This document shows positions 1 through 32,807 of a DNA stretch of 64,000 nt, in pieces. Position numbers and translations under genes: made by a program. Origin of the DNA: Blepharisma japonicum (taxonomy: Eukaryota > Ciliophora > Heterotrichea > Heterotrichida > Blepharismidae); assembly GCA_949751835.1 (NCBI GenBank), contig CATKHK010000030.1, forward strand, positions 1-64,000, in the 5' to 3' direction. Numbering within the stretch: the first letter of the stretch is position 1; every line of letters begins with the position of its first letter. Under the pieces are notes generated by a model that saw nothing but the letters and a program-made list of their open reading frames with translations, made no database searches and was not told the origin of the DNA.

Positions 1-1907
1 TAAAAACAAGCATACGAAACAGGGTTAGTGTTTCCATATGTTTCAAATAATGTATTATAAACATCTTTTCCTTTTTCTCCTATAAATACAGATTGAATAA
101 CAGCTAACAAGGGAACACCAATTTCTACCCTTTTATAGGTGTAGTCATCTTTATTGGCAATTTCAGAAACCCAAGCAGCGTTAGAAGAGATAAAAAGAAC
201 ATCACCTTTTCTCATTCCTAAATCATAAAATAATTCAATAGCATAATATAATAAAGGAGGGGTCAATAATAAAGCTACGAGTCTTACATTTGTATCAACA
301 ATTTCTTGGAAAACGTCTGAATAATTTTTTATTTGATTTCTCGTAAGTAGCTGTGGAATTATTCTTAATTCATTAACAATATTTAATTTCTGCGCTGCAG
401 CTGCTTGGCTTAGATAATAATTTCCTCAATAGCCTAAGCTATTATTTTCATATATTATTGCAAAATTAGCCCAGCCCATTACTTTAAGAAGCAGTGGATC
501 TTGAGAATACAGAAGATTGCTGGGCAAGTTCACTCTTGTATATAAGGGGTATTTTGTATAGTTTGAAAAGCCTGGATCAAGATTAAGGTAACCAACACAA
601 GGAATTGTTATGTTCAATTTTGCGAGATTAGAAATTTCTCCATAAGCAACTGAAGAGCCAGGAGAAAATAAATGAGCTAATCCTAGCTTGTCTTTATCTT
701 TTTTAAGACAGTTATAGTTAAAAGTCGCATTATATGCAAGCACACCACAGTCAAAGTCATTGAGTTTTAATTGAAAATTTTGTAAAATATCAGTACCTTC
801 ATTTATATCGTTTATTGCTAATGCCAATCCTCTTTTATAAATTAGCATTCCTGGAGAAGAGTCAGTGCCAGGATTTGTAGTTCCATCATTTGCGCTAATT
901 TCAATAATTTTTCTCTGAGAAGCTGGAATATCAGTAGAATTTCCTGGAAAAATTAATGCAGAGCTTAAAGTAAGATAACCATTTACTACAGAGCCAACAA
1001 CCTTTCTTTTGCTTTCTTGAATATTAATAAGAGAAAATTCATTAGTACAGTAATTGTTTGGACATTGATTTGAAAGTCAAATTAAAGAATCAATTGAACT
1101 TGAATTATTGCTTAAAAAACCGATCATTTCAGAAATGGCAACAGATAAATATTTTTCGTAAGAGTCAACTTCTTCTTTTCCCTTTTCGACAATAGCTAGA
1201 GCTCCATTACTGCTTGATTTATAGCTGCTTTCACCAATTAGCAAAATTCCTGTTCCTTTTGTAAGCATTTTTGATGAGATTAATGCTTGCTGAATTTCAA
1301 TAGAAGTATTTTTGTCTGAGAATATATAAAATAGTGATGAGCCCAATTTAAAAAATTCTTTTTGGATTAAATCTTCAATGAAAGTATCTGAACTAACAGT
1401 AAATAAAGAAAATTTTTCTGAATAATTGAATAAGCAATTTTTTCAGTTTGAATAGTTTTCAATATTGCTTACTGCTAGTCCAGCAGTTCAGTTAAAATAA
1501 CTTAAAGTTGCAATAAAAGCGTTATTAAAACTTTGTTGAGAACTGGATAGGGAAAAAGTTCATTTGTGAGGATAAAGTAAACTGTCAGAAAACTGAAAAT
1601 GTATAAGAAGATGCTTCTCACATAACTTCGAAATTTCAAATTGAGAGCTTAACTGATTTGTTATATCAAAAATTGCAAGTAAATTAGAGTGATTTGAAAT
1701 TTCTTCATAGATGGAGGAATAATCACAAGAAATAGTTTCAATTGAAGGAAAGCCAGAAACGTTTGCGTTAATATCATTAATTAAGCTTGAAATAGTACTC
1801 ATTGAGGAGCTAGAATATACAATCAACACTTCTAAAGAATATGAAAGCTCATTTGAAATCAAAAGTAGATACTGCAAAAGTAATTGGTAGAAATAATTTC
1901 ACTTCAT
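1..1907 (-). CDS. Receptor-like protein, array copy 1 (3' part outside window)
   Basis: First member of the tandem receptor-like family. The window edge cuts it at about residue 635, inside the type I periplasmic-binding domain, so the membrane part is not seen. Read with UGA as Trp, the frame is open throughout. I start at the ATG complementary to 1905-1907 rather than a methionine ten codons later, because the extra residues (MKWNYFYQLLLQYLLL) complete a hydrophobic signal peptide. The binding-domain hallmarks of the family are present: [22 protein letters not shown] followed by LAKLNITIP, and a GW at the end of the first lobe where W is TGA. No intron is visible. Ligand unknown. The family call is firm; the receptor role is inferred. 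Confidence 0.85.
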
Positions 1908-2399
1908 TATTTATTTTTCTTAACAAAGTTAAAACTAAAGGTTTAAAAAGATTTCAACCTTACAATCGGCATCGTTTGAGTTATTTTTAAATAAGTGAAT
2001 GAACAGATATTAGATAAAATATTATTAAATTATAACAAGTTGCAGACAATATGGCGACTTCTCCTTTTAACTCTTTTAAAGCCAACTTTTAGTAGATAAT
2101 TAGACAGCAAGGGCTTAAATTCCTGCTTATTAAATTTCTCTCCTATCAAACGTTGCAATTAAGGAAATAAAATTCATAAGCGATATGCTCTTCATACGCA
2201 TATTTATTTATAATAGTAATCTTATGAACCTAATTTATTAAAAAATTATTTAATTTTAGTATAATTAAAAAAAAATAATCATGGCTTTCAATAGATATCA
2301 TTTTGTATATAATTTCTTGAGTTAAGCATTATTATATCTCTTGTTGTTTATTTTTTGGATTATTTAAAATTCAATATTATAAATGAATAATATTTATTA
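1908..2399. other. AT-rich spacer between array copies 1 and 2
   Basis: About 490 bp between the start of copy 1 and the stop of copy 2. It must hold the copy 1 promoter. I see no gene, RNA or clear repeat in it. Confidence 0.6.
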
Positions 2400-5300
2400 T
2401 TATTTAGAGTTAAGCAATTCAAGTTTTTGAGGTATTATTTTTGAGTGGTGATCTTTTGATTTCTTTCCAAATGAAAATGCAAATTTAAATAAGTTTGAGG
2501 TATCTTTTGCTTTCTTTCTATATAATAAACTTGGATATTTTTTCTTTTGGACAAATAACCCTATCAATATTAAAAATCCCCATCCCCCTAAAATTAAGAA
2601 AATTCATGGAAAGCTACTTCCATTTATAAGGAAATTCATGGTTGATAGAAAAGATACTCAAGTAACACCAATAAGGCTTAAATTGTGCCATCAGTTGAAT
2701 CTTTCATAATTATAAGCTTTAAATTTCAATAAAATGAGTATATAAAGAACAACTAAAAATGTAAATAAAAATCCATGGGCTATATCACTAGATCTTTTAA
2801 GTGTTTTACTCATAACTATTAAGATCACTTGAACAACTGTTTTCACCATTAAATATAGAGGAAATGATTTTACATGCAATTCATGCTGAAATTCTTGCCA
2901 AAGAGGTCTACAAAATACTGCAAAAGGGTGATAACATATTAATGAAACAGCAGATAAAATAGCATAAGCAATATGATTTCCTTGTCAGCAGAATTGATAG
3001 CAATCAATCGAAAGGTAGCTGTCTTTGAAATTATTTCCAATAGAATTATCACAGACAAAAATATCCAGCAGGATTGATATAAATGGGATGAAGCATAAAT
3101 TACCCAAAATTGGCATAGAATTATCAGCTAAAATTCCTAGGGCTCTAAAAAACCAAATATTACTGAATGTTTCATCTAAGTGCCAGAAGATTTCTATACA
3201 AAAAATACACCAAAGCCCACACAAAATAATAATCGCTTTATAAAACCACCAAAAAATATCATTTTCAAACTTTAAAATCCCCCTAACATCCAAGGATACT
3301 GCATCTCCAATATCAGCCAAAATTGAATTTAACGGCCTGATATCAGGACCTTGCGAAAGTAATTGAAAAAATTCTACCACTATTGTAATTCCAACAATCA
3401 TATCTGCAATTGAAATCTCTTCACTTTTTGTAAGCACTTCTACCTTCAAATTCCATCACTTTTTCCAAATAATAAAAGTTGCAATAGTTGTCACAATGGC
3501 AATAAAAAAACAAATTCCAAAAACCAAAGCTCGGCCTTTAGCAAATGTTTGCTTTAATTTATCATCAAATGGACAATTAGTCCTTGTGATCCTAAAATCT
3601 GTTGGCTTATTACTAGTTCCATCTGCGTATACAAAAGGAGTTTCAATAGTCAAAACTTTTAGGCTTGTAGGTGCAAAAAATCCAACGTCATAAATTTTTA
3701 ACGTACCTGCTGTAGAGTTATAAGAGTTAGATTGGATTGTGAAGCTAGACAATTGAACATCATTGCTATTTTTTTGAATATAAATAGTTCCACTACACCC
3801 AGTAAATTTTACGCTTCTTATGGCTGATTGAAGGTTTTTAGGATCTGTATAGTCTTTTCCTTGATTAATAGTCCAATCCAAAGCTATTCCAACCAAATAT
3901 ATAGAGTCATAAAACAAACAAGAAAATGAGCTGGGCTCTGTATTTCCATATGATTTGTATAAGTTATCATGAACACTTTTTCCTTTTTCACCTACAAAAA
4001 ATGACTGATATACAGCTAATAACGGAATAGCAACTTCTATTCTTTTATACGTATAATCATCTTTATTCGCAACAGAAGACAGCCACCCAACATTGGGAGA
4101 ATAAAAAATCATATCCCCCTTTCTTATTCCTAAATCATAAAAAACTTCTGCAGCATAATCGATTAAAGGAGGATTTAATATTAAAACAATCATTCTTGCA
4201 TTTGTATCAATAATATCTTGAAATACATGAGTATAATTTTTTAGCTTGTCCCTGGTCAAAAGTGGTGGAATTGTTTTTAATTTGTTGACGATATTTAAAT
4301 TTTGCTTTTCATTTGCTTTGATAATGTAATTATTTGCTGTAATGCCTAAGCTATCGTTCTGATATAAAATCGCGACATTGTTTCAGCCCATTACTTTTAA
4401 TATTAATGGAACTTGTGAGAATAAAACAGTACTTGGCACACTTACTCTTGAATAAAATGGGTATTTGGTAGAATTTGAAAGGCCCGAGTCGACATTTAGA
4501 GCCCCGATGCAAGGTATAGTGATATTTAATTTTCCTAGAGTGGCGATTTCTCCATAAGCTAATAAGGAGCTTGAAGCCATAATGCGGGTCAATCCAAGTT
4601 TGCCTTTATCTTTATTAATGCAATTATAATTAAAAGTAGCGTTATATACAACTGCTCCACAATCAAAGTCATTCAGTTTTAGCTGAAAATTTTGTAAAAC
4701 ATCATTATCATTATTTATATCTTTTAAAGCTGATGTAAATCCTCTATTATAAAGAATCACTATATCTGAAGGGGCAGCACCAGGGTTGGTTGTCCCATCA
4801 TTGGCACTGGCATATAAAAATTTCTTTTGAGATACTGGAATTTCAACAGAATTCCCTGGGAAAACTATTGAAGAATTCAATACTAATATCCCATTGATTA
4901 TAGATCCAACAAGCTTTCTTTGGTTTTCATGAATATTTATAAGGGAAAATTCATTTACACAATAGTGATTTGGGCACTTTTCTAATAATAACATCAAAGA
5001 ATTATCGACACTTGAAGCATTGCTTAAAAGAGAAATCATATCTGAAATAGCGAGAGATAGGTATTCCTCATAAGAGTTTGCTTTTTCTTTGCCTTTTTCA
5101 ACAATAGCTAATGCTCCTTCTATAGCTGATCCATAACTGCTTTCGCTGATAAGAAGAATTCCAGTTCCATCAGTAAGCATTTTGGAAGATTTTAAATTTT
5201 TTTGTATTTCGATGGAGCTATTACTGTCTGTAAATAGATAAAATAGCGATGAGCCTAATCTCGTAATTTCTCTTTGAATAAAATTTGTAACAAATGCGTC

Positions 5301-5810
5301 TGAGCTTACAGAAAATAACTCTATTTTTTCAGAATAATTACTAAGGCCGATTTGGTAAATTGGATAATTTTCAACGGCACTAAATGCAACACCACTAGTT
5401 CAATTAAAGTACTTTAAGGTCGCAATAAAAGCTTCACTTAGATTTTTTTTTGACCCAGAGAGAATATAAGTTCAGTTTTGTTTGTAAGGCATGCTATCAG
5501 AAACTAAAAAATGTATAAGAAGTTTATCTTTGCAAAGCTTGGATATCTTAAATTGAGAATTTAAGTTATCCGTAATGTCAAAAATAGCAAGTAAATTAGG
5601 AAATTTTAAAATTTCTTCTTCAAGAGAGTTAAAATCACAAAAAAACATTTCAATTAAGGAGATATTGGAAACACTTGCTTTTATTTCAGCAAATAAGCTC
5701 TTTGATGAATTTGAATAGGCTATTAAAACTTCTGATGAGGTTGAAACTGTTATAAAAGTCAAAAAAAGCAATTTTAAAAATCCTCTTTGCTCAAATAATA
5801 TGACAGCCAT
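2400..5810 (-). CDS. Receptor-like protein, array copy 2: PBP1-type ectodomain plus multi-pass membrane region
   Basis: Complete intronless member, 1136 aa, stop TAA at 2400-2402. I use the ATG at 5808-5810, which starts a hydrophobic signal peptide. A methionine-free extension upstream is open but has no ATG. Order: signal peptide (about 1-30); divergent N-terminal region (30-330) with [17 protein letters not shown]; type I periplasmic-binding domain (about 335-730) with [30 protein letters not shown] and [10 protein letters not shown]; a conserved [13 protein letters not shown] linker; then about 8-9 hydrophobic segments, including [10 protein letters not shown] and [18 protein letters not shown]; and a basic tail. 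Many in-frame TGA codons fall where paralogues also need Trp. In animals and bacteria this ectodomain fold binds amino acids and similar small ligands. The membrane part does not obviously match class C GPCRs. Confidence 0.88.
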
Positions 5811-6379
5811 GCCAGTGAATAATTTATTCAAATCTCATTGAAAATGAGACTTATTAGAAACTATTTACATAAGACTTATTAAATCTAAAGCCCAAATAAA
5901 ACCTATTAATTCAAAGAAGTATGTACTGTTTGAAAATCAAGTTTTTAAAGTTCGATTTTTGATTGGTAAGCTTGAGATTGCTTACAGAAAGCAAATACGA
6001 ATTTAAATAGAGCAAAGGTATCTTTTTCTCTTCAAAATAATTCTTCTTCTGCGAAGCAATGATAACTGTCAATCCTTTTAAAATCATAGCAATCGATAGG
6101 AAGGAAAATGCATTAATCAGGAAATTTTTTGTAGATAAAAGAGATACCTAATTTATTGTAATAAGATTTAATTTGCACCACCTGGTCTCTTAAAAATGCA
6201 GCTTGCTCATAGACTTTATACTTTTAAATTCGAAGCATTTATATTGCTATACTAAATTATTATAATGATAGTCAAAACTTCAAGTTGCTGGCTATCTATG
6301 TCCACCATGCCTAAACACTCTCGAACTGAAATATGAAGGCTCAAGCTATACATCCAATTACATTTAAAAAGTTAATTTA
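5811..6379 (-). pseudogene. Spacer with degraded 3' end of a receptor-family gene (about 5931-6185)
   Basis: The spacer between copies 2 and 3 contains a decayed piece matching the C-terminal coding end of the family on the minus strand. It keeps recognisable tracts for the final TM, the KKxYPxLLF-like stretch and the tail (for example around 5993-6030 and 6110-6175). It carries stops and frameshifts and is not translatable. The rest of the spacer is AT-rich with no other feature. It is a remnant of a lost array copy. Confidence 0.6.
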
Positions 6380-9300
6380 TTATTTAAAAAAGTCTAATTT
6401 TTGAGGTTCGATTTTTGAATGGTGAGCTCTAGATTTTTTACCGAAGGTAAATGCAAATTTAAATAATGTTGAGGTGTCTTTTTCTCTTCTAAATAGTAAA
6501 CTTGGATATCTTTTCTTTTGGACAGCAAAGCCTATTAAAATTAAAAGTCCCCATCCACATAAAATTAACGCAACTCATGGAAAATTAGATCCATTAATAA
6601 GGAAATTTATTGTAGATAACAGAAATACCCAAACAACTGCAATAAGGCTTAGCTTGTGCCATCAATTGAACCTTCCATAGTTATAAGCTTTAAATCTCAT
6701 AAAAAATGTGGCATAAAGCAGCAAAAGAAATATAAACACAAACCCATGAGCAACATCACTGGATTTCTTAAGAGTTTTGTTAAGAACTATTAAAATCACT
6801 TGCATTACGGTTTTTACCATCAAGTAAAGAGGAAAAGATTTAACATGCAATGAATGCTGAAATTCTTGCCAAAGAGGTCTGCAAAATACTGCGAAAGGTT
6901 CGTAGCAAATTAGAGAAATTGCAGATAAAATGGCAAAAGTTATATGATTTCCCTGTCAGCAAAATTGATAGCAGTCGACAGAGAGATAACTGTCTGTAAA
7001 TTTGTTTCCAATAGAATGATCGCAAACAAATATTTCTAAAAGTATTGATATAAAAGGAATAAAACACAAATTTCCTAAAATTGGCATCGAAAAATCCGCT
7101 AAAAGTCCTAAAGCCCTAAAAATCCAAATATGATTAAATTTCTCATCTAACCTCAAAAACATTTCTATACAAAAAATGCACCACAAATCACACAAAACAA
7201 TAATTAAAGTAGCAACCCACCAAAATACACCATTTTCAAGTTTCACAAAACTTTTCAAATCCAAAGACACAGCATCTCCTATATCAGCAAGCAAAGTGCT
7301 CAAAGGTCGAAGATCAGGACCCTGAGAAAGGAGCTGGAAAAATTCTACCAGAATTGTAGCTCCAACAATAAAATCAGAGATAGAAATTTCTTCTCTTCTT
7401 GTAAGTTCTTCTACTTCTGTATTTCACCAATTTTTCCAAATGAAAAATGTAATAATTATTGTAACAGCTGCAACAAAAAAACAGATTCCAAATACCAGGG
7501 CTCGGCCTTTATCAAAAGTTTGCTTGAGTTTATCGTCAAATGGGCAGTTAGTTCTTAAGATTCTGAAATCTGTAGGCTTATTAGTGGTTCCATCTGCATA
7601 TACAAAAGGAGTTTCAATAGTCAAAATCTTAGAACTTGTAGGTTTTAATAAGCCATATTCATAAATTTTTAACTTTTCTGATGTGTAGTTATAAGAATTT
7701 GACTGAATCGTAAAGCTTGATATTTGGACATCATTGCTTCCTTGCTGCATATAAACTTTTCCACTGCATCCTGTAAATTTTACATCTCGAATAGTTTTTT
7801 GAAGGATATGAGGATTAGTATAATCATTACCTTTATTTATAGTCCAATCTAAGGCTGAGCCAATTAAATAGCCAGCATCATAATATAAGCAAGCATACGA
7901 GTTAGGCTCGGTGTTTCCATACGCAGTATATAGTTTGTCATGAATCTTTTTACCTTTTTCTCCTATAAAAAGTGACTGAAAAGTAGTTATTAGAGGAACA
8001 GCGACTTCTACTCTTTTGTAAGTATAGTTATCATTATTCGCAACTGAAGTGAGTCATACAAGATTAGCAGAGAAAAAAATTATGTCACCTTTTCTCATAC
8101 CTAAATCATAAAAAAGCTCAGCTACATAATCTATTAATGGAGGATTCATTGCTAAAAGTATCATTCTTACATTTGTATCAATAATATCTTGAATTATATA
8201 TGTGTAATTTTTTATTTGCTCTCTGGATAATAGTGGAGGAATAGCTACCTGCTCATTAACAATATTAATATTCTGCTTTTTAGCTGCTTTACTTATAGTA
8301 TTATATGAAATAACTCCTGTACTATCATTTTGATATAAAATGGCCATGTTATTTCATCCCATAACTTTAAGTAATAAAGGAATCTGTGCAAATGTAATTG
8401 TATTCGGTAGGATTAACCTCGTATAAAATGGGTATTTTGTGGAGTTTGAGAGGCCTGAGTCAACGTTTACGGCTCCAACAAGAGGAATAGTAATATTTAA
8501 TTTTGCTAAAGTCGCAATTTCTCCATATGCGACAAGAGAGCCTGAGTTAACCATATGAACCAATCCGAGCTTTTCTTTATCTTTATTTAGGCAACTGTAG
8601 CAAAAAGTAGCATTATATACATTTGCTCCACAGTCAAAATCATTTAATTTTAACTGGAAATTTGGTAAAATATCGAGTCCTGAATTTATGTCACTTATTG
8701 CTTGTGTTAGGCCTCTTTTATATATAGCGACCAATAGGTTAGGGACAGCTCCAGGATTGGTTGTTCCATCATTCGCACTGAAATATAAAATTTTCTTTTG
8801 AGATATTGGTATAACGGAAGAGTTTCCAGGGAAGATGAGAGAAGAATTTAATATTAGATTTCCATCTATAATAGATCCTACTATTTTTCTTTTATTTTCT
8901 CGAATATTTATAAGAGAAAATTCATGCGCACAATAATGATTTGGGCACATTTTTGATAATAAAATTAATGAATCGTCAACACTTGAAGAATTGCTTAAAA
9001 GAGAAATCATCTGTGAAATAGTAGTGGATAAATATTTTTCGTAAGATTCAACTGCTTCTTTGCCTTTTTCAACAATAGCTAACGCTCCATTAGTTTTTGA
9101 TCCATAACTGCTTTCACCATTAAGCAGAATTCCAGTTCCATTTGTAAGCATTTTTGACGATTTTAAATATTTCTGTATTTCGAAAGAATTATCTTTGTTT
9201 GTAAACAAATAAAATAATGATGAGCCTAATCTCATTAATTCACCTTGAATAAAATCTTCAATGAAGGTATCTGAGTTAACAGGAAATAATTTAATCTTAT

Positions 9301-9787
9301 CAGAATAATTTTTGAAAGTAACTTTCGCATTTGAATAGTTTTCAACGCTGCTAATTGCTGTGCCAGCAGTTCAATTAAAATATCTTAGAGTTGTAATAAA
9401 AGCCTCATTTTGTCTTATTTTTGAACTTGCAAGTGAAAAAGACCATTTATGAGGATAAAAAAAGCTGTCAGAAACCTGGAAATGTATAAGTAAGTTTTCT
9501 TCGCATAGTTTTGAGACCTCAAATTGAGAAGTAATGCTACTAGTTATGTCAAAAATTGCAAGTAAATTTGGATGGGTGGTGATTCCTTCTTTAAGTAATG
9601 AGATTTCGCATGTAGAAAGTTCGATTGAAGGAAGATTTAAAATATTTGCCCTGATATCGGTAATTATACTTGGCATGATACTTCTTGAAGAATTTGAATA
9701 AGCAATCAATAATTCTAGAGAAGCTGAAAGCCCTATTCATGTAAAGTACAGAAATTGGAAAAGTATTTGATGACTACCAAATGCCAT
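6380..9787 (-). CDS. Receptor-like protein, array copy 3
   Basis: Complete intronless member, 1135 aa, ATG at 9785-9787 and TAA at 6380-6382. The N-terminus MAFGSHQILFQFLYFTW (W is TGA) is a signal peptide. The binding domain lies at about 330-730 and membrane segments run from about residue 760 (GRALVFGICFFVAAV) to about 1095. The tail ends HHSKIEPQKLDFFK, a C-terminal signature shared with its neighbours. Potential N-glycosylation sites are frequent in the ectodomain (LSNSTKYP, KLNITIP). Its block 6901-7440 is nearly identical to 9833-10379 in the adjacent pseudogene, far closer than other array copies are to each other, so this is the youngest duplication or conversion event here. Confidence 0.88.
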
Positions 9788-19200: not shown

Positions 19201-19696
19201 TGCTCAGAAGAAGTTGAGAATATGAATATTTCTCAACATTAGTTACTCCTACACCATTAGTTCAATTAAAAAATCTTAAAGTAGCTGTAATAGCTTTATT
19301 TCAGCTTTCTTTTGAACTAGAAAGGGAAAATGTTTTTTTATTCTGATATGGCAAGTTGTCAGAAACTATAAAATGTATTAGAAAATTGTCCTCACATAAC
19401 TTTGAAATCTTAAATTGAGCGTTTAAACGATCAGTTATATCGAATATTGCAAGTAGATTCGGGTGAATTGAGATTTCTTTTTCAATTGAAGAATAATTGC
19501 AATAAAAAATTTCAATTGAAAGGATATCAGAAATTCTTGCTTGGATGTCTGAAATCAAGTTTGGCATAATAGCCTTTGAGAAATCAGAATTCACAATTAA
19601 TACTTCTAAGGAAGAAGAAAATGCAATAATAGTAAGACATAATAATTTGAAATGTCCTTGATAGCTACAGTATAGCTTTTCACTGATTTGCTGCAT
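16280..19696 (-). CDS. Receptor-like protein, array copy 6
   Basis: Complete intronless member, 1138 aa, ATG at 19694-19696, TAA at 16280-16282. The N-terminus MQQISEKLYCSYQGHFK followed by LLCLTIIAFSSS is a signal peptide and resembles that of copy 7, so these two are probably close sisters. The binding domain has SANDGTFNP and KLNDFDCG. The conserved linker reads [13 protein letters not shown]. Membrane segments are in the usual order, and the tail ends SKIDFQKP, shorter than in the others. The TM2-TM3 loop differs (GPDIRNLSSFLANVCNTLTL), where other copies carry GDAVSLDL. Confidence 0.87.
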
Positions 19697-20160: not shown

Positions 20161-23100
20161 TTACTTGTAAGAACTTAAATCTAATTTTTGAGGTTCGATT
20201 TTTGAAGTGGGCACTGTTGAATGCTTCCCAAATGTGAATGCGAATTTGAATAAAGTTGATGTGTCTTTACCTTTCTTTCTAAATAATAAACTTGGGTATC
20301 TCTTCTTTTGGACAATAAAGCCTATTAAAATTATGATTGCCCATCCAGATATAATTAGAGAAACTCATGGAAAGCTCAATGCCTCAACAAAGAAATTTAT
20401 CGTTGATAAGAAAGATACCCATGCGACTCCTAAAAGACTCAGTTTAAACCATCAGTTAAATCGTCCATAGTTATATGCTTTGAATCTCCACACAAATAAT
20501 AGGTAGAACAATATCAGAACTGTAAATATAAATCCATGTGCAATGGCACTCGACCTCTTAAGGGTTTTATTTAAAACTATTAGCATTACTTGAATAACAG
20601 TTTTTATCATCAAATAAAGAGGAACTGATTTTACATGCAAATTACTTTGGAACTCTTGCCAAAGGGGCCTGCAAAACACTGCGAAAGGCTCATAGCAGAT
20701 CAATGAGAGAGCAGATAAGATAGCATAAGTAATATGATCACCTTGCCAGCAGAACTGGTAGCAATCAATAGAAAGATAGCTTTCTGTGAAATTATTTCCA
20801 ATAGAATGATCACATACAAAAATTTCTAATAGGATTGAGATAAACGGAATGAAGCATAAATTACCTAAAATTGGCATAGAATAGTCAGCTGCAACCCCTA
20901 AAACTCTAAAAATTCAAATTTTATTGAATTTTTCGTCCAATTGCAAAAAGATTTCTATACAAAAAATAGATCATAGTCCACATAAAACAATTATTGCTGT
21001 AGCAAACAACCAAAATACTCCATTTTCAAGCTTAATAAAGCTTCTTAGATCCAAAGACAGAGCATCTCCAGTATCTGCAAGAAAAGCATTTAAAGGTCTA
21101 ATATCAGGACCCTGGGAAAGCAACTGGAAAAATTCAACCACAATTGTGGCTCCAACAATTATATCTTCAACTGAAATTTCTTCACTCTTAATAAGCTCTT
21201 CAACTTTTATATTCCATCATTTTTTTCAAATTAAAAAAGTAATAATTGTTGTTATAACAGCAATAAAAAAGCATATTCCAAAAACCAAAGCTCGGCCTTT
21301 TGCAAATGTCTGCTTTAACTTATCGTCAAATGGGCAATCAGTCCTTGTAATTCTGAAATCTGTTGGCTTATTTGTACTTCCATCTGCATATATCACTGGT
21401 GATGCGATAGTTAAAATTTGTGAGCTTGTAGGTGTTAAAAAGCCAACGGTAAAAACTTTTGCTATTTCTGTTGTAGCGTTATAAGAATTTGATTGGATTG
21501 TAAAATTTGTTGAAAGCACATCATTACTATTTTTTTGTATATAAATTTTTCCACTACACCCTGTAAATTTCACATCTCTTATTGCTGCTTCAAGAATGTA
21601 AGGATCAGTATAATCTTTTCCTTGATTTATAGTTCAATCCAAGGCAGTCCCTATTAATAATACAGAATCATAATATTGGCAAGAAAATGATGCAGGCTCT
21701 ATATTTCCATATGTTTTATAAAGCTCATCATGAACTTTTTTCCCTACTTCCCCCACAAAAAGTGACTGAAAAACTGTTATTAATGGAATTGCCACTTCTA
21801 CTCTTTTATATGTGTAATCATCTTTATTAGCTACAGTAGTAAGTCATGAAGGATAGGTTGACAAAAATATGATATCGCCTTTTCTCATACCTAAGTCATA
21901 GAATAATTCTGCGGTATAATCTATTAAAGGGGGATTCAATACTAAAATTATGATTCTTACATTAGTATCAATGATATTTTGAAATACGTTGGTATAATTT
22001 CTTAGCTGCTCTCTATTAAGAAGAGCAGGAATTGCTTTTAATTGATTTACTATGATGAGTTTTTGCTCTAAGGCCGCTTTGTTAATATAACTATTTGCGT
22101 TAATTCCTAAACTGTCATTTTGATATAATATCGCGACGCTGTTTCAGCCTAGGACTTTTAGTATTAATGGAACTTGTGCAAATGTAACACTGCTTGGTAA
22201 GCTTACTCGTGTATAAAATGGATATTTAGTAAAATTTGAGAGGCCTGGATCAACATTAAGAGCCCCAACACAAGGTATTGTAATATTTAATTTTGCTAAT
22301 GTAGCAATTTCTCCATAAGCGGTTGGAGTACCTATTGCAAAAATATGTGCTAGCCCTAACTTCATTTTATCCTTATTTAAGCAATTATAGAAAAAAGTAG
22401 CATTATATACACTTACTCCACAGTCAAAATCATTTAGTTTTATCTGGAAATTTTGTAGCAGATCTATGCTGCTATTAATATGTTTTACGCCCAATGTCAA
22501 GCCTCTTTTATAAATAAGGATTGATTGATTAGGCGTTGCTCCTGGATTAGTTGTTCCATCATTTGCACTTATATATAATATTTTCTTTTGAGATACTGGG
22601 ATTGCAGTAGAATTACCTGGAAAAATTATAGATTTACTAATTGTAAGATTTCCATTTTTAATGAACCCAACAATTTTTCTTTTGTTTTCTTGAATATTTA
22701 TAATAGAAAATTCATGGGCACAATAATAATTTGGACACCTTTTGTATATCAAAGTTTGAAGATCATCTAAGTTCGAAGCATCTTTTAGAAATAAAATCAT
22801 TTCTGAAATGGCTACAGATAAGTATTTTTCATTAGAGTCCACAGTTTCTTTTCCTTTTTCTACAATAGCTAAGGCACCTTTACTGGTCGATCCATAACTG
22901 CTTTCCCCAATGAGTAAAATTCCTGTCTCATTGATTAGTATTTTTGACGACACTAATGCCCGCTGAATTTCTATTGAGGTATTTTTATTAGCCAGCAAAT
23001 AAAACAGTGATGAGCCTAATTTCATAATTTCTCTTCCAACAAAATCTTGAATAAAAGTATCTGAGCTAATAGAAAATAGTTTTATTTTTTTAGAATAATT

Positions 23101-23598
23101 ATTCAGCATAATTTGAGAATTTGAATAATTCTCAACGCTGCTTACTGCCACACCATCAGTTCAATTAAAGTAAGCTAAAGTAGCAGTAATAGCTCTGTTT
23201 AAATTTTCTTTTGAGATAGAAAGCGAGAAAGTCCATTTATTATGGTAAAGCAAGTTTTCTGATACCAAAAAGTGCGCAACGAAATTCTCCTCACAGAGCT
23301 TTGAAATCTCAAATTGAAAGTTTAAACTATCTGTTATATCAAAAACTGCAAGGAGATTTGTTCTGTTTGAAATTTCTTCTTTAAGTAAAGAATAATCACA
23401 GGAATTAATTTCTATTGAAGAACTGGCTGGAATGCTCGATTTTATATCTGCGATCAAACTGGATGTGACGATTTTTGAGAAATTTGAGTCAACGATTAAA
23501 AATTCCGAAGAAATTGTAACTGCAATTAAGTTCAAAAAGAAAATTTTTTTGAAGTGTCCGTGACAGCTACCAAATCTAATTTTACTGTCTTGCTGCAT
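20161..23598 (-). CDS. Receptor-like protein, array copy 7
   Basis: Complete intronless member, 1145 aa, ATG at 23596-23598 and TAA at 20161-20163. The N-terminus MQQDSKIRFGSCHGHFKK, then a hydrophobic stretch, matches copy 6 in style. The ectodomain carries the usual [10 protein letters not shown] and KLNDFDCG. The lobe motif reads [20 protein letters not shown], shared with the split copy at 26209-31490. The linker reads [13 protein letters not shown]. Tail ends SKIEPQKLDLSSYK. All in-frame interruptions are TGA. Confidence 0.88.
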
Positions 23599-24379
23599 GT
23601 TGATTAATAATAAAATCTTAGTAAGAAATGATTAAAGTATACGTAGAAATTAAAGAGAAATAATTAAGATAACTAGCTTGCATCATCAATTTACACTATC
23701 GACCAGATAACCCCAAGCACATATTTATTAAGCTGACTAAGATTTTACAAGCTCAACAATATTAAGCAGCTAGTCAAAGTCTAATTTTAGGGTTAGCTTT
23801 TTATCTCTTGGGACCTGTAGAATGTGGAGTTTGAAAAGTATGCTCAAGCAAGTTCTTGAGATTGCAGATGACGATATTAGACCCAAGGCCTAGTATCTAG
23901 TGCCGCAATACTAGATGTGGCGTTTGGGGCTATATGCATCTGAAAACATATTAAAAGTTCATTTTTTATTTTTCAGAATGATAGTTCAAGGTTGGCATAC
24001 TATAAGCAAGCCTAGCGACTGGAGACTCAATGTCAGTAGCTACTTTAACAGCTGAACTAAACTTTTAGCTTAACGGTCCTTAAGTGCTGCAGAAGCTCTA
24101 ACTAACCTTAATCCTTACTTTTCTCTTCTTTTCCTAACCAAGTTTCATAGCACTATAGCTTCTTTGATAGCTTTTTGTCGTCATTGGCCCTTTTTTACAG
24201 GTATCTCTTCGCTAAATACTCCAACTCCATTTAATAGTTTTAATATAGCTTACCTTAATTTCTTTTTTTCTCTTTAATTTCTTTAGTGATTTCCTTTATT
24301 TTGGTAATGCAATGTGGTAATTGAATTAATTCTAATTTTATCTTCGGTCATGTCTTCATTTGATTCTCAATTTTTAGTC

Positions 24380-24835
24380 TCCTAACTAACTGCTTTGATG
24401 GACTGAATGGCCAAAATTAGTTTTACATCATCTTGCCTTGCAAGTCAAATTCTTTCTCCTTTCCATAATAGCCTTTGTTTCATCTACTTCACCTCATCTT
24501 CATCTGCATCTTCTTCATCTCAAATTTCTCCATCCAAAAGTATGTCCTCAAATTCTTTACCTCCTTCTTCCTCTTCCATGAGGCTTATTTCTTCTTCCTA
24601 AAATTTTTTATTTCATCAAGAACCTCATTTAAAGTGTCAGTTTCGCTAAACTAATCATATTCTCTGTAAGAGTCTCAGATGCTTGCATAATCATTTAATT
24701 CAATTATCACTCTAAAAATAAAATTTGCAGGCAATTTAGCAACCTGAGAAGACTGATCGAGCATTCAAACTTGTCGAACTTTTTCGTCAAGCCATAAGCT
24801 TGAATCAAGATGAGAAGCCAGATCTTACTTGGTAA
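24380..24835 (-). pseudogene. Decayed gene for an acidic protein, family unknown
   Basis: On the minus strand, reading UGA as Trp, about 24605-24820 encodes protein-like sequence (LDSSLWLDEKVRQVWMLDQ, then QVAKLPANFIFRVIIELND, then TDTLNEVLDEIKNF). In a neighbouring frame 24400-24600 encodes a run of acidic residues (EEEISLMEEEEGGKEFED). In-frame TAG and TAA codons interrupt both parts and no start is evident. I do not recognise the family. The Ser-rich plus-strand frame over 24407-24601 is just the complement of the Glu/Asp-rich stretch. Confidence 0.4.
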
Positions 24836-25299
24836 GCATTAAAATCAAAGTTAAATAAGATTATAAAGATAAATAAATTTACTTTTTATTTGGAAATCCT
24901 TATAAAATACTTTCATCCACTATATTTCTAGCTTTGAATTCTTATCAATTTTAGGTTCTTATTTTTTAGATACTACAAGATTATTATCAAATTAAATAAA
25001 AAATCTAGAGAAATATTTTGGCTTGCAATAAGTAAAAGAACAATAAATAATTCGAATTTCACAATATCTTTAATGAAATATTAACTAATGCATTTAAAAA
25101 GAGGGAGAAAAAAAAGGTATTATGATTTAGTTTCTCTATTTGTTTTTATAAGTATTCTTAATTCATGTCTAAAAAATTATAGCTTTTTCCTCAATCGCCC
25201 TGTCGGCATTGATCCAGAAGTAGAGTTGATCAGATAGACAACTTATTAACTGAGTTGTCGGACTTCTATATATTCTGGGGTGGTCAAATGCCTATATAA

Positions 25300-25605
25300 G
25301 CAACCTTGGTAACCGTACAGCACGTCTGGCTTAGTTGAAGGTCCAAAATTAAAATAAACTCTGGCAGACTTTCTGTAAAAATTGAAACTTGCGGCCTAGG
25401 AAATAACTCCTGATATTGTGCTTGGGATATTACTCCAATTGATTATGATATTATACATATGGAAAACATTTTCGCTAAGAACCAAACATGCACACTTAAT
25501 TATTATTCACATTATAGCATTCAAATGAGTTTTGCAATCCCTATTAATAGCTTACCTCCACAATACATAATTGGATTTACTAGCGAGAATAAGTATTTAT
25601 TATAG
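25300..25605 (+). pseudogene. Open stretch of about 100 codons, possible gene remnant
   Basis: Between an in-frame TAA at 25297 and TAG at 25603 this frame is open and protein-like, with Cys and N-glycosylation-type sites (KIETCGLGNNSWYCAWDIT, then MENIFAKNQTCTLNYYSHY, then SLPPQYIIGFTSENK). It looks like part of an extracellular domain, but it has no ATG at a plausible start and no recognised family. It may be an exon remnant or a fossil. Confidence 0.3.
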
Positions 25606-26208
25606 AAATAGGATGCAGCAGCTATTAGGAATGCTATTATTCATTGTAAGTAATATTTAAATAGGCTATTATTACTTAGTATGTCTTTTATCCTTATCAA
25701 ATTCTCTGAGATTTTCTTTTAAAGGTTCGAGCTGTATAAGATTTTTTTCTATGAGGTTTCTTCTGCCATTTTTTAGTTACCTAAAATGTTAGTTTAAAAG
25801 ATCGGTAACAAGTCTTGCTGTACACACCTCTGCGAGGTATTTTCAGCTCTAATACTTTTAGGCTATCCCTCTAAGAATTTAGTTTAATTTTCACTAGATT
25901 TAGATTTTGATATTTATCTATTATTATGATGCCTTAAAATCATTGATTCCATTAACTTTCCTGCTTAATTCTAGCTGATCAGTTTGATTTAGTAAAACCA
26001 TATATTTGTCAGATTGAACTTGGCTTGCCAGAGTTTAGCAGAAGATTCAATGTGATTGGTTTCTGCTCTCTTCATGTAGCCAACCTTAAGGCTAGCTTTG
26101 TTGTCCCGCTTTCAAATATTTGAGAATCGTATTAATTTTTTTGACAGCCATCTAAATTTATGCTAAGGCTATAATTACAATATAAATTTCTGTTTACATT
26201 ATAAATAT

Positions 26209-29200
26209 TTATTTACATTCTGACTTAAACAAATCCAACGTTTGAGGCTCGATTTTTGAATGAAATCTTTTAGATTTCTTTCCAAAAGTGAATGCGAATT
26301 TGAATAAAGATGAAGTATCTTTTCCCTTCTTTCTGAATAGCAAATTTGGATATTTCTTCTTTTGGACAATTAGTCCCATAAGAATAATGATTGTCCATCC
26401 TCCAATTATTAATGAAACCCATGGGAAGCTCGATCCTTCAATTAAGAAATATATTGTTGATAGGCAAGATACCCATGCAACTCCTACAAGACTCAGTTGG
26501 TGCCACCAGTTGAATCTTCCATAGTTATAAGCTTTAAATTTCCACCCAAATGCTAAATAAAACAAAATTACCAATAAAAATATAAATCCATGGGCAGTAT
26601 CACTTGACCGCTTAAGTGTTTTATTTAAGACTATGATAATCACTTGTATAATTGTTTTTATCATCAAATATAAAGGAATCGATTTTACATGCAAAGTATG
26701 CTCAAACTCTTGCCAAAGAGGTCTGCAAAATACAGCGAAAGGCTCATACAAGGCCAATGAGAGCGCAGACAAAATAGCAAAAGTAAGATGACTACCTTGT
26801 CAGCAGAACTGATAGCAGTCAACAGAGAGGTAGCTATCTGATCAGTCATTTCCAATAGAGTGATCACATACAAAAATTTCCAATAGGATCGATATAAATG
26901 GAATAAAACACAAATTTCCTAAAATTGGCATAGTGTAATCATATATAAAAATAGCATAAGACCTACCTGGCATGCACTTTAACTCCTGTAGCCAGTACCG
27001 AAAATAGGTAGGGTACATTGAAGAAGGCACTACATCTTCAGGTGTGTGCTCCCAGCTAGGCTCTCTAAACAATACCTAGGACATCCACTAGGTTAATCGG
27101 AACATTTATCAGTGCGATGCCAGGTTCTGAGAATTGGGCTAGTAAATTGACCTGGAACATATTTTAATTTTTCAATATATGAAATAATAATTTATATATA
27201 CATTTTATACACAAAAAATATTTTTACAGCTTAAACAATGCTTATTTTTCCTTCTTCAAAATGGCTTATATTGAAGCAAAAATAGGATACTGGTTGGTTT
27301 GACCATTATCATGCTTACAGTATTATTGCAGCTCTTATGAGCTTTTTAATAACTATTTTCTCCGTATTTTCTTAAGTTTTTGCCTGAGCCTTCGCCTGAA
27401 CTTCATCAGAGCCTTTGCCTGAACTCTTGCTTGAAATTTTGCTTGAGCTTTTGCTATACTTTTGCCTATACTTTTGTCTGAACTTTTGCATGAAGCTTTG
27501 CCAGAACTTTTGCCAGATCTTTTGCATGAGCTTCTTTCTGAAGTTTATCTGAACTTTTAGTTTAACTTTTACATTTACTTTTGCATCAGCTTTTGTCTCA
27601 ACTTCTTCTCAAATTTCTTCCTCAACTTTTGCCTCAATTTTTGCCTCAACTTTTGCCTCAACTTTTGCCTCAACTTTTGCCTCAACTTTTGCCTCAATTT
27701 TTGCCTCAATTTTTGCCTCAACTTTTGCCTCAATTTTTGCCTCAACTTTTACCTCAACTTTTGCCTCAACTTTTGCCTCAATTTTTGCCTCAACTTTCGC
27801 CTCAACTTTTGCCTCAACTTTCGCCTCAACTTTTGCCTCAACTTTTGCCTCAACTTTTGCCTCAACTTTTGCCTCAACTTTTGCCTCAACTTTTGCCTCA
27901 ACTTTTGCCTCAACTTTTGCCTCAACTTTCGCCTCAACTTTTGCCTCAACTTTTGCCTCAACTTTTGCCTCAACTTTTACCTCAACTTTTGCCTCAACTT
28001 TTGCCTTAGCTTTTGCCTAAGATTTCTTTCCAGCTTTTGCCTCAGTTTTTGCATCAGCTTTTTCCTCAGCTTTTCCCATAACTTTTATCTCAACTTTTGT
28101 AACAGCATTTGCCTCAACTTTTACCTCAACTTTTGCCTCAATTTTTGTCTCGAATTTTTCCTCGATTTTTGCCTCGAATTTCGCCTCTACTTTTGCCTCA
28201 ATATTTCCTTTGGTTTTTTGGCTTTGCTAGCTCTTTTAACTTCTTCTTGAGCCTTCAGCTCCGTTTTACCTGCTGTTGGCAGAGCTTTCGCCAGACCATA
28301 AATGAGTGAAACCGGGAGCTCCCTACATTTGCTCACTACCTGGATCAATTCCCCTTCATCTAGCGCGATTCCATCCATCTCTGAACCCCATCTCAGCATC
28401 ATTTCCATAAATTCTTGCTCATTAACCTCACTTTCACTTCCAAGATCATTCTCCTCATCGGACATGCAATCATCAAATAGTTTATCCACTTCTCCCAAAA
28501 CTCCTCATCATAAAACAATCTCTCCTCATCTGAAGTCATGCTTTCAAGAGTTCGTTGCTACTTCACAATCCTTGACCAATCAAGGCAGATATTTCACGCT
28601 CTCTTCCTCTTGCCGCCATTTTCCCTAACAAAATAAAAAATAGAATTTTTTGATCAAATTAAAGTGTGGAATGAGTAAAGTAATGTATGAAATTGTGAGC
28701 ATCAGTGAAGTATTATTGAAGTGAATAAAGGTCACCGAGCCCTCACAGCTGCGTATCAATAAATTAACTTAACGTTAACAACATAGAGTAATCAGCTAAA
28801 ACTCCAAACTCTCTAAAGAATCAAATTCGATTAAATTTTTCATCCAAATGAAAAATAATCTCAACACAAAAAATAGCTCACAGTGCACATAAAGCAATAA
28901 TTAAGCCTAAAATCCACCAAAAAACGCCATTTTCAAGCTTATAAAGATTTTTGAGATCTAATGACACTGCATCTCCAATGTTCGCAAGAAATGAATTCAA
29001 AGGTCGAATATCAGGGCCCTGAGAAAGCAGCTGAAAAAATTCTACAACAATAGTAACCCCAACAATCATGTCTTCAACTGAAAGTTCTTCGTTTTTTATA
29101 AGCTCCTCAACATTTATATTCCACCATTTTTTCCAAATATAAAAAGTGACAATTGCAGTTACTAATACAACAAAAAAACAAACCCCAAAAGCCAAGCCTT

Positions 29201-31490
29201 GGCCTTTAGGGAAATTTTGCTTTAATTTATCATCGAATGGACAGTTTGTTCTTGTGATTATGAAGTCTGTAGGTTTTTTTGTAGTCCCATCAGCATATAT
29301 AATAGGAGTTTCTATTGCCAAAATTTGCAAGCTTGTAGGTGTAAAATACCCTACATTATAAGTTGTTAATATATCTATAGTAGCATTATAATAATTTGAT
29401 TGGATTGTTAGACTTGTTAATTGCATATCATTGCTATCTTTTTGTATATAAACTTTTCCACTACATCCATTAAATTTTATATTTCTAATAGCTGCTTGAA
29501 GAATAAAAGGATTGGTATAGTCATTCCCTTGATTTATAGTCCAGTCCAAAGCGGTCCCTATTAAATAAGCAGCATCATAATACAAACAAGAGTACGATGT
29601 AGGCTCAGTGTTTCCATTAGATGCATATATTTCATCATGAATTTCCCTCCCTTTTTCGCCTACAAATGCTGATTGGATAACAGTCATTAATGGCACAGCA
29701 ATATTTAATCTTTTATATGTATAATCATCCTTATTTGCAATAGAAGAGAGCCATGCAGAAATAACTGAGTATATAAAAATATCCCCTTTTCTTATGCCTA
29801 AATCATAAAATAATTCTGTAACATAATCCGTCAAAGGAGGGTTCAATACATATATTACCATTCTGGTATGAGTGTCAATGATGCCTTGCACCACATTCGT
29901 ATAATTTCTTAACTGATCTCTAGTAAGGAGGGGTGGGATTATTTTTAGCTCGTTAACGATTTTTATCTTTTGCCTTTCAGCTTCTTGACTAATATAATGG
30001 TAAGCTGAAATTCCTAAGCTGTCATTTTGATAGAGGACTGCAACACTCCTTCAGCCAAGAACTTTTAATATTAAAGGAGCCTGTGCATATAATACATTGC
30101 TAGGCAAGCTTACGCGTGTATAAAATGGATATTTAGTCTTATTTGAGAGACCTGGGTCAACATTTATAGCCCCAATGCAAGGGATAGTAATATTTAATTT
30201 TGCCAATAAAGCAATTTCTCCATAAGCAGTTGGAGTGCCTATAGAAAAAATATGTGCTAATCCCAGGCTATTCTTATCTTTGCTTAAGCAATTATTAAAA
30301 AATGTTTCATTATATATGCTAACTCCACAGTCAAAATTATTAACTTTTAGCTGAAAATTTTGTAAGATATCATATTTGGTATTGATAGTTTTGACTGCAA
30401 GTGTGAGCCCTCATAAATGACGAATTATTGAGGGTACAGAGACAGAGCCAGGATTAGTTGTTCCATCGTTTGCGCTGATGTATAAAATTTTTTTTTGAGA
30501 TACTGGAGTTTTAAGTGAATTTCCTGGAAATATGATAGGATAATTTATAGTTATTTTTTCTCCTGCAATGGATCCTACAATTTTTCTTTGGCGTTGGTTA
30601 ATATTTATAAGAGAAATATCTTTAGAGCAATAATGATTTGGGCACATTTTTGACAGCAAAATTCATGAATCATCTACACTTGAACTATTTTTTAAAATCA
30701 AAACCAGTTCTGAAATCGCGACCGATAAGTATTTTTCATAAGAGTCGACTAATTCTCTACCTTTTTCCACAACTGCGAGAGCTCCTTCAACAGTTGATCC
30801 ATAACTGCTTTCGCCGATAAGCAAAATCCCTGTTTCATTGGTCAGCATTTTTGAATTCATCAATGCTTGCTGAACTCCAATTGAAGTATTTTTGTCAGCA
30901 AATAAATAAAATAATGAAGAGCCTAATTTCATTAGATCTCTTTGCACAAAATTTTGAATTGATATATCTGAGCTAACAGAAAACAGCTCAATAGAGTTAA
31001 TGTTCAGCAAAAACTGCGAATGTGAATATTTCTCTACAGTTGTTAAAGCAACCCCATCAGCTCAGTTAAAATAGTTTAAAAGAGCAGTAAAAGCTTCTCT
31101 TAAAGTTTGTTTTGAACTTGAAAGAGAAAAAGTTTTTTTATTATGGTAAATTAAGTCATCAGAAACCACAAAATGTATGATAAAGTTATCTTCGCAGAGC
31201 TTTGAAATCTTGAACTGAGAATTTAAACTGCTAGTTATATCGAAAATTGCAAGAAGATTTGGCCGATTTGATATTTCTTCTTCCAGTCGTGAATAATCGC
31301 ATAAAGAAATTTCAGTTGAAGCTATACCAGAAATTTCTAATTGAATATTTGAAATCAAATTTGATATAACATTTGAAGGGCTTGAGTAAGCAATTAAAAC
31401 CTCTGAAGACGCTGAAAGTGCAATTAAAGCTAAAATTGCTTTTAAAAATCCTTGATGATAATAAGATGAATTGTGCTTACTATACTTCAT
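26209..31490 (-). CDS. Receptor-like protein, array copy 8, split by a 1.85-kb insertion
   Basis: ATG at 31488-31490 ([20 protein letters not shown], a signal peptide), TAA at 26209-26211. The coding sequence lies in 28795-31490 and 26209-26941. It is interrupted inside the predicted fourth membrane segment, between LADYS and MPILGNLCF. Removing the insertion together with one copy of the 13-bp direct repeat leaves 3429 nt, a multiple of three and in frame (1142 aa), matching the lengths of the other copies. No in-frame TAA or TAG is seen in either part. The gene could therefore still be functional where the insert is removed, for example by developmental DNA elimination. As the DNA stands it is disrupted. 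The lobe motif resembles copy 7. Confidence 0.8.
27360..28200. repeat. 12-bp minisatellite (consensus CCTCAACTTTTG)
   Basis: Dozens of head-to-tail 12-bp units, nearly perfect from about 27600 to 28010 and degenerate on both sides. Because 12 is a multiple of three, frames stay open on both strands. The plus strand reads Leu-Pro-Gln-Leu repeats. The minus strand reads Gln-Lys-Leu-Arg, or in another frame Ala-Lys-Val-Glu. The Ala-Lys-Val-Glu frame runs into the degenerate units on the right while keeping its Lys/Glu/Ala pattern, so it was probably the original coding frame of a helical charged repeat protein. Confidence 0.85.
28205..28620 (-). pseudogene. Decayed reading frame inside the insertion
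   Basis: Minus-strand protein-like sequence is spread over more than one frame: [35 protein letters not shown], and then a 100-residue stretch with [20 protein letters not shown] and [17 protein letters not shown] leading into the minisatellite. The amino-acid composition (Glu/Asp then Lys-rich) suggests one former protein with a charged repeat tail. The family is not recognised and the frame is broken. Confidence 0.45.
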
Positions 31491-32807
31491 AAATATTATT
31501 TATAATAAATACTAAACAGATTTTTGTATAATATTTATTAAAAACAACAATGCATTGTTAATTTTGTTCATGAGCATTCAGTTCGAAAGATAATTATCAT
31601 TATGGATTTTCCTTTAAAAAACAAAAGCAAGTTAAATAATAAATTATAACTGAACTATCCAAAAAAATTGATTTATGAAAATTTATAATATAAATTAATT
31701 GTTTTACTTTTATCAATCCTGTTAGAATGTAAAATTAAATAGCTTTAGATCTATGTATGATACTAGCAATTATATATATTCAACTATAGCAAATTTTGGT
31801 TCTAAGTTTATGAATATGCATGCTATAATTATCTAACATTTCACAAGTATTCAATTTGCATTTGATATTCAAATATAAAATTCTAATTAGAATTCATTAG
31901 AAATAAAGATTAGCCAGCTAAATTAAATTGATTAACAGAAAAAGATAGGTTTTTTTGAATAACTTTTTAGGATGAGATTTAAATTTTTTCAAGAATCTTT
32001 ATGCAATTCCATTAATTCAATTAAATTCTTTAAAGCTGTAGCAAAAGCATTAATTAAACTCTTTTTTGAACTAGATAGTGAAAATGTTAATTTTATGTAG
32101 AGTAAGCTGTCAAAAAATTATGAGAAATTGTCATCACATAATTTTGAGATCTTGAATTGAGAGTTTAGAATTATAATTTATAGAGAAAATATGTAAATTT
32201 TTATTATAACTAAAAGAATTAATATGGGAAAATTTTCATACCATAAATTTCGAACTAAATTCTTTCTATCGTTAAACTAATTTTATTTGATCTGAAATTG
32301 AATAATTATAAAATAGACTTAATATAGATGCACATAAATTTAATCTTTACTTTAGGACATTGTGCATAAAAACGAGATAAAGAGTATTGATTATATCCAA
32401 ATTACCAGAGCTAAGAAATAAGCTTAGAATATTAATTATTTTTCAACAACCAATTTCAAAGTTTATCTTTTTACCAAACATATATAATAACTTCTTTATA
32501 CATCAGTCATTGGCATGATTGTAAAGATAAGTAATTCTTACTTAATCACTTTAAGAATTCTTAAAATGGTTTAAAATCGAATTAAATTAACAAGCACATA
32601 CAAGGCAATTATATTTAATCTTTTTTTGTGAGCAATATTTTTTCTCCAACTAAATGGCGATATAATAATTAAGCTTCTATACTTTATTATTTATCTTTCC
32701 TGCACTTCTAATCACAATAATTATTGCAATCTCTTATTTTCAGTTGCTATTTGTATGGAAGCTCAAATTTATCAACAATTTATTAAAATCATCATTAAAT
32801 AATTACA
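31491..32807. other. Spacer at the array boundary, with an N-terminal relic of the receptor family (about 32000-32185)
   Basis: AT-rich, 1.3 kb. Around 32000-32185 the plus-strand text matches the complement of the family's N-terminal coding region (compare 31060-31220 of copy 8), with small deletions and stops. It is a decayed 5' end of a former copy and marks the array edge. The rest appears empty apart from the promoter of copy 8. Confidence 0.6.

Follow-up and report, generated by a model that had tools for sequence, protein, structure and literature searches.

Class C G-protein-coupled receptors (GPCRs; mGluR, GABA-B, CaSR and T1R; PF01094 plus PF00003) join an ectodomain of the PBP1, or Venus flytrap, fold to a multi-pass membrane domain. 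Ionotropic glutamate receptors (iGluRs) and plant glutamate-receptor-like proteins (GLRs) carry a PBP1 N-terminal domain, and LivJ-type periplasmic binding proteins (Peripla_BP_6) have the same fold. The genes described here, from the ciliate Blepharisma japonicum, form a tandem array encoding receptor-like proteins with PBP1 ectodomains at the start of contig CATKHK010000030.1 (C30), of which bases 1–64000 were analysed (the window); the genome comprises 45.2 Mb in 224 contigs. Judging from sequence, we favour with moderate confidence the view that the array represents a single cluster within a large family of Blepharisma chemoreceptors, for which a mechanism based on closure of the second flytrap domain (D2) is proposed. 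Chemosensing would be the most economical reading of the role of its products.

To our knowledge, the molecular basis on which ciliates smell food, partners and danger is largely open. A survey of 24 ciliates, Blepharisma not among them, found the largest receptor numbers in heterotrichs and reported no family C GPCR in any of the 24 (Luo et al. 2023, PMC9960496). Its filter, which combined similarity to known GPCRs with 3–8 transmembrane (TM) helices, would probably miss the family described here. According to an eLife survey of GPCRs (PMC12716839), animal ectodomains combine ANF with NCD3G, have ANF alone or pair Cache with EGF, and domains of other kinds occur outside animals; its section 9 does not mention two ANF domains in one ectodomain. 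In the main text of the article presenting the 41 Mb assembly of B. stoltei (PMC9942806), the word 'receptor' has 0 occurrences. No description of a double-flytrap family was found in the open-licence literature, preprints, most subscription journals and outside annotations lying beyond the scope of that search. The large receptor-like family is real, and its combination of parts was not found described.

Architecture of the array products

The array copies all lie on the minus strand, and their open reading frames (ORFs) are open when TGA is read as Trp, which is the published Blepharisma code (PMC9942806). Five copies are complete, with 1135–1145 residues and no need for an intron, in line with the ~1140 residues originally predicted. 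The reference copy is copy 7 (20161–23598, minus strand; 1145 residues; PF01094 E 3.6e-23). The complete copies match it at E=0, and therefore chance likeness is excluded; their identity to copy 7 or copy 3 is 65–69%. The one-strand tandem array of receptor-like genes proposed in the original prediction is thus real. Each protein has a hydrophobic N-terminus, a first flytrap-like domain (D1), D2 ending in Cys-Pro-Phe (CPF), nine hydrophobic segments and a basic tail. The order D1, D2, CPF and membrane domain is common to all 45 sequences of a genome-wide alignment (copy 8 up to the point where it is split). This set drops duplicates of window copies or other loci (L001, L002, L005–L007, L013, L029, L037, L044 and L045), along with L047 (897 residues, at a contig end), copy 1 and the window relics, and includes the N-terminal part only of copy 8. 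Profiles were built from a 23-member set within it, consisting of copy 7 and 22 loci picked for diversity from the first two genome searches.

The ectodomain is a tandem flytrap pair, because D2 matches PF01094 while the D1 profile matches both GluN1 and D2. In copy 7, profile comparison places D1 at residues 31–344 (22567–23508, minus strand) and D2, with the CPF linker at its end, at residues 345–757 (21328–22566, minus strand). PF01094 was matched by D2 in 23/23 family members examined and by all seven window products that hold the region (E 1.6e-13 to 5.4e-28); the eighth product scanned, the C-terminal part of the split gene, has no such match. Against the PDB, the D2 profile found GLR3.4 best (2e-27) and GABA-B1 at 7.6e-21; weaker Pfam matches to Peripla_BP_6 were present in 16/23 D2 domains. 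D1 is more distant. PF01094 alone detects 9/23 D1 domains at E<=0.1, with a best value of 2.3e-17 and only 0.019 for D1 of copy 7. As a single sequence, one D1 gave a weak match to an iGluR/GLR N-terminal domain (E 0.0027) that spans the 'IIWPG' end strand. Comparison of profiles nevertheless aligned D1 with D2 over 220 columns from D1 position 129 onward (hhalign, 95.4%, E 1.7e-8), and the best PDB match of the D1 profile was the N-terminal domain of the NMDA-receptor subunit GluN1 (4.2e-12). Collectively, the predicted PBP1-type ectodomain is borne out by comparison of profiles for both halves, with the amendment that it contains two PBP1 domains, not one.

The membrane domain of copy 7 (residues 758–1145; 20164–21327, minus strand) was delimited by hydropathy. 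The mean over 23 sequences gave eleven peaks, and merging of two overlapping pairs left nine segments, at residues 770–788, 813–831, 866–884, 906–924, 956–974, 991–1009, 1019–1037, 1052–1070 and 1077–1095, followed by a basic tail of 50 residues. The eight to nine segments expected earlier are therefore matched by nine. Lys and Arg number 24 in the inner loops, 12 of these being in the tail, against 10 in the outer loops, and the loop 925–949, which is outer after peak merging, has neither. We infer that the N-terminus carries a signal peptide, that the ectodomain lies outside the cell and that the tail lies inside; this orientation would put Cys929 and Cys946 in a loop on the outer side and Cys950 at the edge of that loop. 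Conservation was checked at 14 columns chosen from the 23-sequence alignment, whose members lie within the 45. Thirteen of these positions are invariant in 45/45 sequences, or 44/44 past residue 905, namely Cys755, Pro756, Asp812, Gln825, Trp863, Cys929, Cys946, Cys950, Trp951, Arg977, Trp980, Lys999 and Gly1085 in copy 7 numbering, and Pro831 is retained in 44/45.

Searches for relatives of this domain were negative. A Pfam scan of the 23 membrane domains returned nothing credible, the best match being to a domain of unknown function in one member (E 0.0021). PF00003 was absent among their matches at E<=1, a range in which the HMMER filters drop most matches above ~0.1, and the 23-sequence membrane-domain profile found no PDB chain at E<=10.

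These results bear on the possibility that the proteins are divergent class C, glutamate-family GPCRs, with a single flytrap, a 7TM bundle and a heterotrimeric G protein. The affinity of D2, which is nearest to the ectodomains of class C and plant glutamate-receptor-like proteins, speaks for such an origin. The missing PF00003, the presence of nine hydrophobic segments rather than seven, the second flytrap and the lack of any NCD3G match (a domain of the mGluR/CaSR/T1R branch only) among eight window proteins at E<=1 speak against it, as does a genome-wide PF00003 search that found three other loci only. A six-frame, intron-blind genome search revealed no canonical G-alpha, the named control genomes including no eukaryote that could serve as a positive control. 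All 38 G-alpha candidates were scored, and each of the 19 matches was partial, lying within profile positions 159–264, a pattern expected of Arf-like small GTPases; the two over the cut-off share one 676-residue frame and pass by joint score only. Some G-protein-type machinery may exist all the same, given a 7TM protein on contig C5 (L056, 1100–2160, minus strand) that matches the class C 7TM domain (E 2.1e-8) and has a C-terminus that by eye resembles a regulator of G-protein signalling. A GPCR is known to affect G-protein activity in Tetrahymena, the G protein itself not having been identified molecularly in that work (PMC3226668). We regard the divergent-GPCR explanation as improbable, and membership of class C is rejected on the membrane domain, which has no PF00003, no PDB relative and nine segments.

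A second possibility is that the nine membrane segments themselves form a pore or a transporter. The array would then encode ligand-gated channels or uptake systems in place of receptors acting on a separate effector. Both iGluR channels and ATP-binding cassette (ABC) uptake systems are known to contain PBP1 domains. The few Lig_chan matches in the genome would fit this idea, as would the strongly conserved Cys, Trp, Arg and Lys residues of the membrane segments and the loops joining them. No channel or transporter match was found in Pfam or the PDB, however, and no pore motif was recognised by eye. A pore or transporter is thus unlikely, though it is the strongest of the rivals to a chemoreceptor. 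As for iGluR and GLR parts, neither a PBP2 ligand domain nor a Lig_chan pore was matched among eight window proteins at E<=1. The Lig_chan (iGluR pore) matches are at three places outside the array, two of them over the cut-off (L063 on C68 and L064 on C27).

The putative ligand cleft of D2

A quick tree of the 45 proteins united six window copies with two copies from contig C73 (L003 and L004) in one clade, hereafter the window clade, with a Shimodaira–Hasegawa-like approximate likelihood-ratio test (SH-aLRT) value of 98. L008 (83), L009 (99) and then copies from C12 and C11 follow outward.

Alignment with GABA-B1 sets copy 7 residue 424 on the first Ser of 'GCSSVS' and residue 449 on the second Ser after the Gly of 'SYGSSS'. 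Similarly, alignment with mGluR7 sets 449 on the Thr of 'ASTA' and 497 on the Tyr of 'GSYG'. Position 424 is Ser or Thr in 42/45 sequences, position 449 in 34/45 and both in 32/45, adjacent columns being more variable. D1 has no comparable hydroxyl pair: at the by-eye equivalent positions 91 and 113, Ser or Thr is found in 20/45 and 15/45 sequences. Residue 89 of D1 is Ser or Thr in 37/45, and we know of no reason for it to have a contact role. The simplest reading of the D2 columns would be that most family members detect amino-acid-like molecules via D2.

The window clade departs from the others at this cleft. At 449, Ser or Thr occurs in none of its eight members (which have V, Q, F or I) versus 34/37 of the others, and copy 1, outside the 45, has Leu. 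Position 497 is aromatic in 31/37 others and never in the window clade. The other 37 sequences conserve 245 columns, 100 of which fall in D2; six of the 245 are changed in the window clade, and five of the six are in D2, 449 and 497 included. Such clade-specific changes are ordinary in themselves; their location is the point of interest. As the hydroxyl at 449 is lost in 8/8 of the clade, the amino-acid argument is weaker for the window copies, in which, probably, either the ligand has shifted or D2 is a non-binding partner.

Based on these observations, a mechanism can be proposed. A small ligand would close D2, in which the two hydroxyl positions match class C amino-acid contact residues by alignment. 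D1 would be the faster-evolving partner, the single chain behaving as a pre-joined flytrap pair, and the linker would transmit closure of D2 to the nine-segment domain. That domain would in turn alter ion flow or recruit a cytoplasmic partner, and the output would be changed swimming, feeding or mating readiness. With hydroxyl 449 and aromatic 497 replaced, the window clade would probably respond to a ligand that is not an ordinary alpha-amino acid, or its D2 would not bind.

It should be noted that several points weigh against the proposed chemoreceptor family and its mechanism. The count of nine segments comes from hydropathy, and hydropathy of single sequences shows weaker peaks within the ectodomain as well. 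The charge bias is slight without the tail, with 12 Lys or Arg in 68 inner residues and 10 in 87 outer residues. Structure predictions were unusable, with a mean predicted local distance difference test (pLDDT) score of 34.4 for copy 7 from eight window sequences and 36.1 for the membrane domain from seven. Concerning the cleft, the mGluR7 alignment leaves residue 424 unaligned, and GABA-B1 S130 and S153, like the mGluR Thr and Tyr, are residues that we take to be amino-acid ligand contacts. The loss at 449 in the window clade is one evolutionary event, and the same test applied to five other clades of 4–7 members found 4, 8, 47, 51 and 70 changed columns. Finally, no obvious common motif was seen by eye and by alignment in the 220 nt upstream of seven copies.

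The family, the gamone question and the neighbourhood

The receptor-like family to which the array was assigned is large. Six genome searches were run and their matches merged by position under an ad hoc rule; as the candidates scored were 40/357, 102/267, 38/289, 40/297, 36/290 and 40/343, members were missed. Among the candidates scored, there are 148 gene-sized family loci on 45 contigs, a count that did not recover window copies 1 and 4 and may include a broken gene twice. More than 2.5 kb is covered by 109/148 loci, the other 39 being shorter and often PBP1-only matches. For comparison, PF00003 and PF00060 have 3 genome matches each. The family is clustered, with 113 loci falling into 26 clusters (gaps < 15 kb) and the same strand found in 81/87 neighbouring pairs. 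Further, the 30 best PF01094 places include 26 non-duplicate loci, of which 25 have a frame open over at least 1000 codons; this is a favourable sample.

Divergence among six window copies was compared over all 15 pairs. Non-synonymous sites differ on average by 0.223 (D1), 0.192 (D2) and 0.157 (membrane domain), and synonymous sites by 0.59–0.61. The synonymous divergence (dS) is ~0.9–2.2 in the reported pairs, with one infinite value, and the ratio of non-synonymous to synonymous divergence (dN/dS) is 0.08–0.33 in every finite pair and domain, rough figures given that dS is near saturation. Purifying selection acts in all three domains, D1 evolving fastest and the membrane domain slowest, and the reported window-copy pairs and domains give no sign of positive (diversifying) selection. 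The window copies are old, with dS values of ~1–1.7 between one another, and are maintained by purifying selection. The description of the array as rapidly duplicating is hence apt for copy 4, a recent copy described below, and for the relics, which indicate turnover, and not for the intact copies.

These rates also bear on a third alternative, in which the array encodes surface proteins whose variability serves adhesion or the recognition of self and non-self, as in mating-partner recognition or gamone receptors, and not chemoreceptors for small molecules. Such proteins might be suspected from D1 being the fastest-evolving part and from numerous N-glycosylation sequons, 18 in the ectodomain, and gamone 1 receptors are still termed putative (PMC10892320). 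The dN/dS values, without diversifying selection, argue against it; further, 148 matching places exceed by far the need of two gamones, and gamone 2 is described as common in Blepharisma species (PMC10892320). This explanation appears quite improbable. The more specific suggestion of a link to Blepharisma gamones, made on the grounds that the fold often binds amino acids, receives no support from anything in the window, where the hydroxyl at 449 is lost throughout the clade. Blepharismone, a benzoyl lactate derived from an amino acid, is described as common in Blepharisma species (PMC10892320), and therefore a conserved receptor would be expected for it, not a diverged array. The lost hydroxyl argues against deducing blepharismone from amino-acid binding by the fold. 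Blepharismone itself, being a lactate and not an amino acid, may nevertheless still be a ligand.

The remaining copies, all on the minus strand, vary in completeness. Copies 2 (2400–5810; 1136 residues; PF01094 E 5e-23), 3 (6380–9787; 1135 residues; E 5.4e-28), 5 (12067–15504; 1145 residues; E 2.3e-21) and 6 (16280–19696; 1138 residues; E 1.6e-20) are complete. Six uninterrupted copies had been predicted; five of them stand as complete, and the sixth, copy 1 (3–1907), is cut by the contig start. It comprises 635 N-terminal codons covering D1 and most of D2 (PF01094 E 1.6e-13), and its frame is open solely because contig C30 begins there, the gene being truncated by the contig end. The predicted deleted and split copies were both located. 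In the deleted one, copy 4 (9832–10957), residues ~10–209 are fused to residues ~769–962 and the 3' end is missing; over 561 nt, its membrane part matches the DNA of copy 3 at 96.8% identity. The list is extended by three relics, namely a C-terminus with a broken frame (5927–6180; about residues 1043–1143 of a copy; E 6.6e-14), a small 3' end (11373–11442; blastn 3e-9 to copy 5) and a piece of about residues 92–171 (31950–32168; E 3.6e-7).

The split gene, copy 8, consists of 903 N-terminal codons (28782–31490, minus strand; PF01094 E 1.7e-24) and a C-terminal part (26209–26940, minus strand; E 1.5e-119). Between them lies a segment (26929–28793) bounded by two 12-bp direct repeats (26929–26940 and 28782–28793), whose start points are 1,853 bp apart. 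The repeats are identical at 11/12 positions and have TA inside; joining the halves at the repeat restores one frame of 1142 codons. Within the segment, a 12-nt tandem repeat of ~66 units (27414–28201; 788 bp) reads KVEA on the minus strand, and the part 27711–28640, or less of it, has relatives at 79–85% identity on contigs C195, C3 and C18. Either the segment was inserted recently, duplicating its target, or it is a piece absent from other macronuclear copies. With a TA-containing 12-bp repeat at its ends, it may be a leftover germline segment, that is, an internal eliminated sequence (IES). Blepharisma IESs are mostly TA-bound, with a median of 255 bp, a 90th percentile of 603 bp and a maximum of 7251 bp (PMC9942856).

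Beyond copy 1, the array likely carries on into contig C73 past a gap of ~0.55 kb in that copy, the junction being outside the assembly. Contig C73 opens within the membrane domain of another copy at residue ~822 (L054, C73:1–2700), continues with a frame-broken N-terminal relic and goes on to carry four copies on the plus strand and one on the minus strand. An allelic haplotype was considered for the C73 cluster and rejected, its copies being 61–68% identical to copy 7, and one 48%. Ten contig ends were read. At one end of C4, 200 bases hold 13 TGTTAGGG units, the opposite end of C4 has one CCCTAACA, and the remaining eight have neither unit; CCCTAACA is the Blepharisma telomere unit (PMC9942806).

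The spacer between copies 7 and 8 (23620–26200), at 2.6 kb, is longer than the other spacers; it holds no ORF above ~110 residues besides the edges of the two copies and has no second genome match. By Pfam, the right part of the window (38073–58166) contains genes unrelated to the array, encoding an AAA ATPase with a weak Cdc6 C-terminal match (38073–39272), an ankyrin-kinase (39293–40882), a RINGv-FHA protein (52622–53683), a ubiquitin hydrolase (54914–56023) and an aspartyl protease (56823–58166). Four further products from this part had no match in a Pfam scan.

Comparison with known receptor systems

If the chemoreceptor reading is true, the ~110–150 flytrap receptors of one ciliate would amount to a concrete gene set for testing, in which an ectodomain whose chemistry is known is joined to a new signalling domain to define, and an amino-acid-type sensing fold would have expanded to an olfactory-like repertoire independently of animal GPCRs. 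More tentatively, and as a possibility we rate somewhat below even, the family would constitute a new eukaryotic chemoreceptor class, marked by a double flytrap, an orphan nine-segment domain belonging neither to 7TM GPCRs nor to known channels, ~110–150 or more genes and a window clade whose amino-acid cleft has been remodelled to take another ligand.

By the tests run, the family is not in class C. It can be understood as a variant of the flytrap-receptor kind, with an ectodomain that is class C-like and, by analogy, probably works alike there. The two hydroxyl positions of the class C ligand cleft are kept together in 32/45 family members, whereas the Blepharisma proteins differ from class C GPCRs in having two flytraps per chain, nine segments versus seven, and no PF00003. 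With iGluRs and plant GLRs they share the PBP1 N-terminal domain, D2 being closest to GLR3.4 and D1 to GluN1. In contrast to LivJ-type binding proteins, which have the same fold, the Blepharisma family is eukaryotic, and its binding domain has been duplicated and attached to a membrane domain.

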